Below, in pieces: positions 38,304 to 41,017 of a stretch of DNA of 64,000 bases (position 1 is the first letter of the stretch; every line of letters begins with the position of its first letter). The translations under genes were made by a program, and so were the position numbers. Source of the DNA: Gloeomargaritales cyanobacterium VI4D9. GTDB lineage: Bacteria > Cyanobacteriota > Cyanobacteriia > Gloeomargaritales > Gloeomargaritaceae. The stretch spans positions 1,959,157 to 2,023,156 of the forward strand of contig OV696605.1 of assembly GCA_927797885.1 (NCBI GenBank). The letters are read 5' to 3'. A model generated the notes under the pieces. The model saw nothing but the letters and a program-made list of their open reading frames with translations. It had not been told where the DNA came from and made no database searches.

Positions 38304-39452
38304 CTAACTTCGCAATTGAATCGGCATGACCAGATAGGTCATTTTCACATCCCCCAAGGGCGAAAAAATCACCGGGGCGGTGGCGGAATTTAACTGCATT
38401 TGCACCTGGCTGGTGGACATGGCTTTCAAGCCCTCCAAAACGTACTTGACATTGAATGCCACATCCAACGCTTCCCCCTCAATTTCCGCCGGAATTTGCT
38501 CCTGTCCCTGCCCCAACTCCCCCCCCTCCGTCGCCAGGATCACATTGTCCAAATCCAGGGAAAATTTCACCACATTGCGACTGCCCGCCAACACTGCCAA
38601 CCGCTCCAGGGCATGGATCACATCCTCCCGCTCCATCACCACCCGCCGGGCAAACTCCCTGGGGAGCAACTGGCGATAGTTGGGGTACATCCCATCCAAC
38701 AAACGGGTGACCAACCGTTGCTGAAACCCCTCCCCCTGGGGCAGTTGAAAATCCGCCTGGTGGGGTTCCAAGCAAAACCGCACCACCTCCCCTTCATACT
38801 TAGCCAAGAGCCGCTCCACCTCCCGCAGTGCCCTGGCTGGAATCGTGGCGTGTACCGGCTCCCCCCCGCTGGTTACCTCGGTTTCCACAATCGCCAACCG
38901 ATGCCCATCCGTAGCGGCAAATTCCAGGGTTTCACCCCTCGTTTGCAAATGCACCCCGGTCAAAATTTGCTTGGTTTCATCGTTGCTGGCAGCAAATAAC
39001 ACGCCCCGCAAGCCCTGCAAAAACGCTTCCCGATCCAAAGGCATCGCCGTTGCGGTCACTGCCGGTAGGGCGGGAAATTCCTCCCCCGGCAAACCGGCAA
39101 TCTGGTAGGGTCCCGCCAGAGTATCTTTTTTCCTTTCCCGTTCTAAACGCGCACGCACCGTCGCCTGGGTATCGCTGACTTTCAGTTCCACCACCGCCTC
39201 CGGCAAACGGGAAACCAAATCCCCCAACGTGCGGGCGGGCAAGGTGATCATCCCCGCTTCGTAAACCGTCGCTGACAAACGACTTTGCAAGCACAGGGTT
39301 TGGTCAAAGGCACTCAAGGTAAGTTGGGCATCAGCTCCACTCGCTTCAAACAGTACATTCGCCAAAATTGGATTGGTGGGTCGGTTGGCGACGGCACGAC
39401 TAACCACGCTCAGATGGTTGCTCAAATCTTTTTGGGAACAGCTCACATGCAT
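38304..39452 (-). CDS. dnaN: DNA polymerase III beta subunit (sliding clamp)
   Basis: A 382-residue clamp: MHVSCSQKDLSNHLSVVSRA at the start, RPTNPILANVLFEASGADAQ, GLRGVLFAASNDETKQILTG, FAATDGHRLAIVET and C-terminal VIFSPLGDVKMTYLVMPIQL. The Met at 39452 is used, since six extra upstream codons in frame are not conserved. It is transcribed away from the DnaA-box cluster that starts about 90 bp upstream, the usual arrangement at a cyanobacterial origin. Confidence 0.96.
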   Translation of the reverse strand: MHVSCSQKDLSNHLSVVSRAVANRPTNPILANVLFEASGADAQLTLSAFDQTLCLQSRLSATVYEAGMITLPARTLGDLVSRLPEAVVELKVSDTQATVRARLERERKKDTLAGPYQIAGLPGEEFPALPAVTATAMPLDREAFLQGLRGVLFAASNDETKQILTGVHLQTRGETLEFAATDGHRLAIVETEVTSGGEPVHATIPARALREVERLLAKYEGEVVRFCLEPHQADFQLPQGEGFQQRLVTRLLDGMYPNYRQLLPREFARRVVMEREDVIHALERLAVLAGSRNVVKFSLDLDNVILATEGGELGQGQEQIPAEIEGEALDVAFNVKYVLEGLKAMSTSQVQMQLNSATAPVIFSPLGDVKMTYLVMPIQLRS

Positions 39453-39544
39453 ACCGGCAATGTACCCCAAGGTGATGCCATCCTACCACCCCCCTTGCCC
39501 AAGCGTCGCTCTACTCCTGTCTTCAAGAATAAAAATTTTTCTTT

Positions 39545-39820
39545 AGTAGATAGTAGTAGAGCCTGTGGATATGTGGATAACTTTTGTGGATGATTGACGG
39601 CGACGGGGTTTCACACCACCCCCACCTGTGGATAACCTGTGGATAACCTGTGGATAAAATGCCAAGTTATCCACAGCCCCCTTTTTTTATCCACAGCCCC
39701 CCCCGACTTATCCCCAAATAATCCACAGCTTTAGCCCGACTTATCCACAGATTTTTGCCACTTATCCACAACTTATCCACAGGTTTGACCCGAAAAATTG
39801 TAATAATTTTTAATAATCCA
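39545..39820. other. oriC: Probable chromosomal replication origin oriC (DnaA-box cluster)
   Basis: Nine perfect DnaA boxes (TTATCCACA or complement) begin at 39572, 39627, 39638, 39649, 39667, 39687, 39741, 39762 and 39773. Four one-mismatch boxes begin at 39564, 39585, 39708 and 39719. The first group reads TGTGGATAA and the second TTATCCACA, so the cluster has two inward-facing arms with a switch near 39660. Boxes at 39627/39638/39649 and at 39762/39773 are spaced 11 bp apart. A TAG-trinucleotide tract (39545-39560) lies at the left and an AT-rich run (39791-39816) at the right. It lies between dnaN and thiO. Confidence 0.93.
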
Positions 39821-39922
39821 AGTCCTAGCTCTGGGCGGACTATAGTTGTATGATGTCCTAAATTTGTACATAAACTATCTGTAAAGAGATGATAGCCAAT
39901 TACCAGAAAATGACCTAAAAAA

Positions 39923-41017
39923 TTACAGAAGGTTCAGCGTATGACCAAAGCGATCCCATCGGCAAAAGGCCAGTTCGGAAGGCCAAGGGTGACCGTTTAA
40001 GTATTTGCTAATCAAATGAGCGGTGATGGGAGCGAGTAAAATCCCGTTCCGGTAGTGCCCGGTGGCGAGGGTGAGATTTTCCCAGGGGCTAGGGCCGAGA
40101 ATAGGACATTCATCGGGGGTGACTGGTCGGTAGCCCCACCAGGTTTCCAGGATGGGCCAGTCTCGGAGCGGCGGGTAGGTCTGGATAGCCGCCTCTAGGA
40201 GTTGGTGCAATCCCCCGGCGGTGATGCCATCTTGAAAGCCCACATCTTCGCTGGTCGCCCCCACCACCAAGCGTCCATCCCGGCGGGGTACCAGGTAGGC
40301 ACTGGCAAAGACCACCTGATTTAAGCCCGGGGCGTGGGGAGCCTGGAGGGCCAGCATTTGACCTTTGCGGGGGCGGACGGGTAGGGACAAAAGTTTGTAG
40401 GTCCAGGCGCCGGTGGTCAAAACATAATGCCCCGCCTGATGGGAAGCCTCATGGGTAACGACCTGGGTAATTTTGGTGCCTTGGGAGGCGATGCGTACCA
40501 CGGTTTCATGGGAAAAGAACTGCACCCCCAGGGATTGGGCGGCTTGGTACAAAACGGCGTGGAGCAAGCGGTTATCCACCTGACCATCGTTGGGATACCA
40601 CCAACCCCCAATGAAATCTGCCCCCAAACCGGGCTGGTGTTGGTCGAGTTGCTCCCGGTTGAGCCATAGACCCCGGTGGTGACCCCCCGCTTGGCTGGTC
40701 ACCGGCACCACAATTCCACAAGGCCAGTAGCCGGTGGTTTGTCCTGTGCGTTCTTCTAAGTCCTGAATCCAAGCCGGGTAGCACTGTAAACTGGCTTCGC
40801 ACAAATCCCGCATGGCACCGGGGGGAATCTGCTCCGCACCGGGAGCCAACATCCCAGCGGCGGCCTGGGCGGCGGTACCGGGGAAACCCCCATCAATAAT
40901 GCCCACCCGTCCTTGAGTCTTGGCGAGTTCAACGGCAATGCTCAGCCCGATGATGCCTCCCCCAATGATTAAAACATCCATGCTGACGGGTGATAGTTGG
41001 CGTAACTCTATAGCCAT
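39923..41017 (-). CDS. thiO: Glycine oxidase ThiO
   Basis: A 364-residue DAO-family flavoenzyme with the FAD motif VLIIGGGIIGLSIAVELAK at about residues 15-33, AAQAAAGMLAPGAEQIP, GQMLALQAPHAPG and the C-terminal ILGPSPWENLTLATGHYRNG. It oxidises glycine to the imine used in thiazole synthesis for thiamine. Many cyanobacteria fuse ThiO to ThiG; here it is stand-alone. A second Met, MDVLIIGGG at 40981, could be the true start. No TPP riboswitch is recognised upstream. Confidence 0.9.
   Translation of the reverse strand: MAIELRQLSPVSMDVLIIGGGIIGLSIAVELAKTQGRVGIIDGGFPGTAAQAAAGMLAPGAEQIPPGAMRDLCEASLQCYPAWIQDLEERTGQTTGYWPCGIVVPVTSQAGGHHRGLWLNREQLDQHQPGLGADFIGGWWYPNDGQVDNRLLHAVLYQAAQSLGVQFFSHETVVRIASQGTKITQVVTHEASHQAGHYVLTTGAWTYKLLSLPVRPRKGQMLALQAPHAPGLNQVVFASAYLVPRRDGRLVVGATSEDVGFQDGITAGGLHQLLEAAIQTYPPLRDWPILETWWGYRPVTPDECPILGPSPWENLTLATGHYRNGILLAPITAHLISKYLNGHPWPSELAFCRWDRFGHTLNLL

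Follow-up and report, generated by a model that had tools for sequence, protein, structure and literature searches.

The window, the whole stretch of 64,000 nucleotides that was analysed, corresponds to C1:1959157-2023156 of a single-contig genome of 3.16 Mb. It contains dnaN, which encodes the β subunit of DNA polymerase III (388 aa), with matches to Pfam families PF00712, PF02767 and PF02768 above cut-off. Each of the eight family genomes gives a single dnaN match; at least two dnaN-like genes were observed in G065, G073, G075, G079, G127, G129, G167 and G197, where the extra copies are 35-39% identical to the dnaN of the window among the matches listed. The other flank of the region is formed by a gene for an FAD-dependent oxidoreductase of the DAO family (PF01266, E 4.5e-71), which we take to be ThiO-like. 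The features of the region are as follows.

38304-39470, minus strand: dnaN, DNA polymerase III β subunit
39522-39561, no strand: probable DNA unwinding element, the least stable 40-mer of the region (nearest-neighbour stability)
39544-39559, plus strand: DnaA-trio run TAGTAG-A-TAGTAGTAG, its inner three trios (39551-39559) in register
39564-39580, minus strand: abutted, co-oriented box pair (39564-39572 with one mismatch, 39572-39580 exact; 8-bp step)
39585-39593, minus strand: one-mismatch left-arm box, not kept in all Gloeomargarita species
39627-39657, minus strand: three exact left-arm boxes at an 11-bp step; 29 of 31 columns invariant in seven Gloeomargarita
39667-39781, plus strand: right arm of seven boxes, five exact; 86 of 115 columns invariant in seven Gloeomargarita
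39800-39813, plus strand: GTAATAATTTTTAA, a conserved AT element bordering the array on the right
39923-41017, minus strand: FAD-dependent oxidoreductase

The dnaA gene is encoded at C1:2440790, about 442 kb from the array. Its product is intact, with domains I, III and IV present, and its best solved relative is 8btg, presumably the B. subtilis BUS complex. In an alignment, the equivalents of B. subtilis N187, I190, K222 and R264 are identical and N196 is changed to D; four of the five trio-capture and arginine-finger residues examined are therefore kept.

Composition and conservation of the DnaA-box array

A search for TTATCCACA within one mismatch returned 13 DnaA boxes between 39564 and 39781 (218 bp), nine of them exact, in agreement with the 13 boxes, nine perfect, in about 220 bp that the initial annotation had counted. 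It had also described two opposed arms, and the strands and places of all 13 boxes bear this out: six minus-strand boxes come first (starts at 39564, 39572, 39585, 39627, 39638 and 39649), followed by seven plus-strand boxes (starts at 39667, 39687, 39708, 39719, 39741, 39762 and 39773). Such density is not expected by chance, as 60 dinucleotide shuffles of the window gave at most three such sites per 230 bp and no more than two were present in any of 22 stretches taken from elsewhere in the genome. Over the whole genome there are 45 exact boxes, nine of which are at this array, while the reversed pattern occurs 12 times; the only other tight group of exact boxes is found at 1.400 Mb.

The 11-bp step noted for the array is exact in three groups (39627/38/49, 39708/19 and 39762/73), whereas the remaining right-arm steps measure 20-22 bp. 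Overall, the right arm is phased at about 10.65 bp, a fit equalled by 10 of 5000 random placements. Phasing of the left arm is weaker, with 351 of 5000 random placements being as good.

The array is present in all eight family genomes, whose dnaN is 54-95% identical to that of the window, and the right-arm steps are identical across the seven Gloeomargarita. Among these seven, 111 of 116 box columns are invariant, compared with 46 of 111 for the bases between boxes; the corresponding values are 17 of 28 for the trio stretch and 16 of 65 for the dnaN-side leader. Given that the box columns are far more invariant than the spacers, we take selection to act on the boxes and, after them, on the two edge elements. 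The abutted pair reads TGTGGATA(T/A) over 39564-39580, with its two boxes overlapping by one base, and all 17 of its columns are invariant.

For a comparison across the phylum, we examined 80 further dnaN-upstream loci of Cyanobacteriia, drawn from a 194-genome search; adding the eight loci of the family and three origin-like clusters from other places gave a set of 91 loci, in 40 of which four or more exact boxes fall within 400 bp. The initial annotation had regarded the cluster as unusually rich and regular; by this comparison it is rich, but not unusually so. Arrays of 12-13 boxes occur also in the sampled origins of G040, G049, G135 and G193, and the two-arm polarity is common to many box-rich cyanobacterial loci. 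It is also found in Escherichia coli K-12 oriC (L112), whose outermost left box is TGTGGATAA and outermost right box TTATCCACA, as here; the array of the window thus has the bipolar arrangement of the E. coli type, with opposed arms and TGTGGATAA toward the DUE. In E. coli these outermost boxes are named R1 and R4, and the AT-rich element is located outside the left one. The E. coli origin differs in containing two exact boxes and in having mnmG and mioC as neighbours, whereas nine exact boxes lie beside dnaN here. Because the polarity recurs in the phylum and in E. coli, the opposed arms do not set this genome apart. The Thermosynechococcus elongatus origin has 12 boxes (PMC4674748), and Synechococcus elongatus oriC shares with the present locus its dense boxes beside dnaN and a dnaA gene far off (PMC7198777, PMC4674748). 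The box itself is TTATCCACA here, as against TTTTCCACA for most cyanobacteria (PMC4674748). Separately, we observed that in six of 24 origins compared (L029, L049, L073, L082, L084 and L090) the first right-arm box is followed by GTATTTATAC, a short inverted repeat that is absent from Gloeomargarita.

The two edges of the array

On the dnaN side, the 40-mer at 39522-39561 is placed by nearest-neighbour calculation at the 99.9th percentile of the window, at the weak end. The inner trios of the adjoining run are separated from the first DnaA box by a four-base spacer. Three TAG trios at spacer 4 were reached in none of 20000 shuffles of the flank, and the TAG trio run is found in all eight family genomes. 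The BUS has been defined by a DnaA box carrying up to two mismatches together with three or more NAN trios within 16 bp of it (PMC8287927); here, three TAG trios are followed, at spacer 4, by a one-mismatch box and then by an exact box. Bacterial BUS elements share with this locus the co-oriented pair, the short spacer, at least three 3'-GAT-5' trios and the weak duplex (PMC8287927, PMC10721633); the present element differs in the one-base overlap of its pair and in that the motif is found at one array end only. Judged by their sequence, the trios, the co-oriented pair and the weak duplex of the left end are a textbook BUS, and this end, on the dnaN side, is the likely melting site. Within the 40 box-rich loci, a run of at least two TAG trios occurs in 19, at one end each and never at both; a clear TAG run is absent from the other 21, so the trio signature is not universal.

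The initial annotation had noted an AT-rich run following the boxes. This run is real, and 11 of the 18 columns at 39798-39815 are invariant in the seven Gloeomargarita versus 4 of 45 beyond; the less stable stretch, however, sits on the left, with the trios. No TAG run occurs on the right, and the right-hand run does not look like a BUS and is probably not the main unwinding site. Exact matches to GTAATAATTYTTAA occur three times in the genome, at 39800-39813 of the window, C1:1400104 and C1:528321. Copies adjoin each of two DnaA arrays, and the third copy has no nearby box cluster.

It is also conceivable that the array has two outward unwinding sites, with the right element (39798-39815) melting too and one helicase being loaded per arm. 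That element is conserved in the genus and stands at a fixed distance from the last box pair, and the right side is AT-rich, 39785-39860 containing a weak 40-mer (99.6th percentile). Nevertheless, we regard a second unwinding site as improbable. A run of at least two TAG trios is found at the right end in none of the eight family genomes, and TAG runs at both ends in none of the 40 box-rich loci; in the origins of G040 and G135 the final box of the right arm is not directly followed by AT-rich DNA; and the same 14-mer is found beside the second DnaA array, whose anatomy is not that of an origin. A single melting site at the left end remains the preferred reading.

Assignment of the array as oriC

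We are highly confident that 39544-39815 is oriC, the DnaA-dependent chromosome origin of the Gloeomargarita species: a box cluster beyond chance adjoins a weak duplex and neighbours dnaN, and the genome encodes an intact DnaA. The boxes, the family conservation, the phylum comparison and the trio run all sustain the initial proposal of a cyanobacterial-type origin beside dnaN. In S. elongatus, oriC lies near dnaN and is bound by DnaA (PMC7198777), and DnaA unwinds its own BUS in vitro (PMC8287927). On the basis of the array anatomy and of these in vitro results, we infer that DnaA binds and opens the array, with helicase loading and a bidirectional start taking place there. DnaA would load on the strong, helically phased boxes, forming two oligomers of opposite polarity, one on each arm. 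The left oligomer would be anchored at the pair 39564-39580 and grow outward over the TAG trios, the trio-bearing strand in this scheme being 5'-TAGTAGTAG-AGCC-TGTGGATA-3'. Opening would then follow in the AT-rich element that separates the boxes from dnaN, where the helicases would be loaded, while the right arm may aid assembly or the placement of the second helicase.

Nucleotide skew was analysed in a sample amounting to 16% of the genome, made up of the window, twenty stretches of 20 kb and two regions neighbouring the second array. In this sample, GC skew follows gene strand and has no mark at the origin, and in a regression of fourfold-site GC skew over 313 ORFs the replication term at the locus has t = 0.11, the best value elsewhere being about 2.1. 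The GC-skew minimum by which the initial annotation proposed to verify the origin thus finds no support at the locus in the 16% sample, and we set GC skew aside as origin evidence, keeping it as a negative result. AT skew is weak; it reaches its largest absolute t (about 3, uncorrected for scanning), among the axes scanned, on the axis between oriC and its antipode, within a broad plateau. S. elongatus is reported to have a regular GC skew, which was not seen in the 16% sample here. Irregular skew is, however, the rule in most cyanobacteria according to PMC7198777, the accessible part of which does not mention Gloeomargarita; for this reason the absent GC-skew signal counts only weakly against an origin at this locus.

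The irregular skew of the sampled genome also bears on the idea that the array is the relic of a former origin, in cells that now replicate from many sites without DnaA. Cyanobacteria that replicate independently of DnaA and have irregular skew are known (PMC7198777), and many-site replication without DnaA has been reported for Synechocystis 6803 and Nostoc 7120. We find a relic very unlikely, given that the boxes and their spacing are under strong selective conservation across the genus and that the box cluster at dnaN, which is down to at most one exact box in many other cyanobacteria, has undergone no such reduction here. That the array controls dnaN as a DnaA titration or regulatory cluster, and is not an origin, is scarcely credible: it does sit upstream of dnaN, and DnaA arrays away from origins exist in the phylum, but the trio run, weak duplex and opposed arms seen here are missing from the array beside DUF2811 described below, and in G034, G179 and G089 the same origin anatomy is displaced from dnaN. 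The loci in question (L220, L222 and L223) each hold a two-armed array with a TAG-trio end, away from dnaN, and probably serve these genomes as their actual origins. We accordingly retain oriC as the reading of the array in the window.

A second DnaA-box array beside DUF2811

The second array, at C1:1400178-1400283, lies outside the window. Its eight boxes span about 106 bp; three are exact and the other five carry one mismatch each, and seven of the eight lie on the same strand. All seven Gloeomargarita contain it, with 5 to 8 boxes each, between the gene for DUF2811 (PF10929) and a GlcE-like gene (loci L009, L201 and L113 in the genome of the window; L115, L116, L202, L205, L206 and L207 in the family). 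TAG trios were not seen in any of the seven Gloeomargarita copies; with no trio run and with boxes nearly all pointing one way in this genus, a second origin was rejected. As a box cluster without an unwinding element, the array resembles datA. The datA, DARS and B. subtilis DnaA-box clusters are non-origin clusters in intergenic DNA, and the second array is like them in both respects; it differs in being tied to one gene, DUF2811, in most families sampled. We also considered and rejected the GlcE gene as the partner of the array: the far-side gene varies, no more than five of 29 loci sharing one, and DUF2811 is constant. With the divergent neighbour changing from genome to genome, it is DUF2811 that the array accompanies.

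Triple boxes were searched for in 80 cyanobacterial genomes, 22 of which contained them. Among eleven triple-box stretches away from dnaN that were examined, a DUF2811 relative adjoins six and does not adjoin the other five, three of which are origin-like. We then assembled 82 DUF2811 upstream regions from 81 genomes, a non-random set made up of the 30 best-scoring regions and others chosen for family spread. At least two boxes occur within 150 bp in 79 of the 82 and at least three in 66, whereas three or more arose by chance in 2 of 1640 dinucleotide shuffles and in none of 29 downstream controls. Steps between neighbouring boxes are mostly 22, 21 or 11 bp. In dnaA-positive genomes, two or more boxes are present in 78 of 80 regions, the exceptions being G205 and G021; G006 was counted as dnaA-positive even though no dnaA match was obtained from its assembly, which is 83% complete.

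Using the HLR1 (RpaB) consensus of PMC11633204, we found matches with at most two mismatches in 33 of the 82 regions, as against 15 of 410 mononucleotide shuffles, an enrichment that we consider suggestive; the best match in the oriC region has three mismatches. A light or redox input through these HLR1-like repeats is possible. Near the second array there is an HLR1-like direct repeat, GTTACATTCCGTTACA (L113, 1355-1375). An Rfam search of the DUF2811 upstream regions of seven loci found no known RNA.

The presence of DUF2811 was compared with that of dnaA, scored by PF08299, across 388 genomes of Cyanobacteriia with a completeness of 95% or more. The dnaA gene is absent in 18, DUF2811 in 15 and both in 13 (Fisher p = 1.5e-18, kinship ignored). 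DUF2811 is present in 368 of 370 dnaA-positive genomes, the exceptions being the assemblies G212 (380 contigs) and G290 (460 contigs), and is retained in five of the 18 dnaA-negative ones (G055, G147, G183, G454 and G467). The 13 genomes without either gene belong to genera g15, g16, g48 and g39 and to four genera of f13; in g15 and g48, sister genomes retain both dnaA and DUF2811. Two upstream regions of dnaA-negative genomes were available in the set. That of G055 has no box but retains the flanking CAATTCTTATT and a TTGACA promoter-like stretch, while its dnaA-positive sister, G121, has kept the boxes; that of G147 has two opposed boxes, and its DUF2811 match carries two stops. The loss of dnaA in several cyanobacterial lineages was already known (PMC7198777). 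DUF2811 has no Pfam relative except itself and no solved relative; a ribbon-helix-helix look, read from the sequence, is not claimed. Among open-licence PMC papers we found no publication on DUF2811 or PF10929, and nothing on Gloeomargarita together with a replication origin, although subscription papers may exist in both cases.

The origin in the window is ordinary in kind and well supported, and it yields a clean, conserved origin map, with its melting end named, for Gloeomargarita, the lineage that is generally positioned beside the plastids. The second array, reached via the box search, is unreported as far as the open-licence papers searched go and matters more than the origin. We hypothesize that cyanobacterial DnaA has two conserved targets, oriC and the phased array upstream of the DUF2811 promoter, and that DUF2811 is a DnaA-controlled partner, kept or lost with dnaA; we judge this to have an even chance of being correct. 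DUF2811 would perhaps act as a feedback regulator of initiation. The gene and its array would stay with dnaA even in lineages without boxes at dnaN, and would be lost or decay once dnaA is lost. The DUF2811 array may be a second conserved job of DnaA and, if so, would offer a reason for DnaA to persist in cyanobacteria that replicate without it, where its role has been called unclear (PMC7198777). With a conserved box array located at a single small gene whose presence follows that of dnaA, this question could be tested directly in laboratory strains of Synechocystis or Nostoc.
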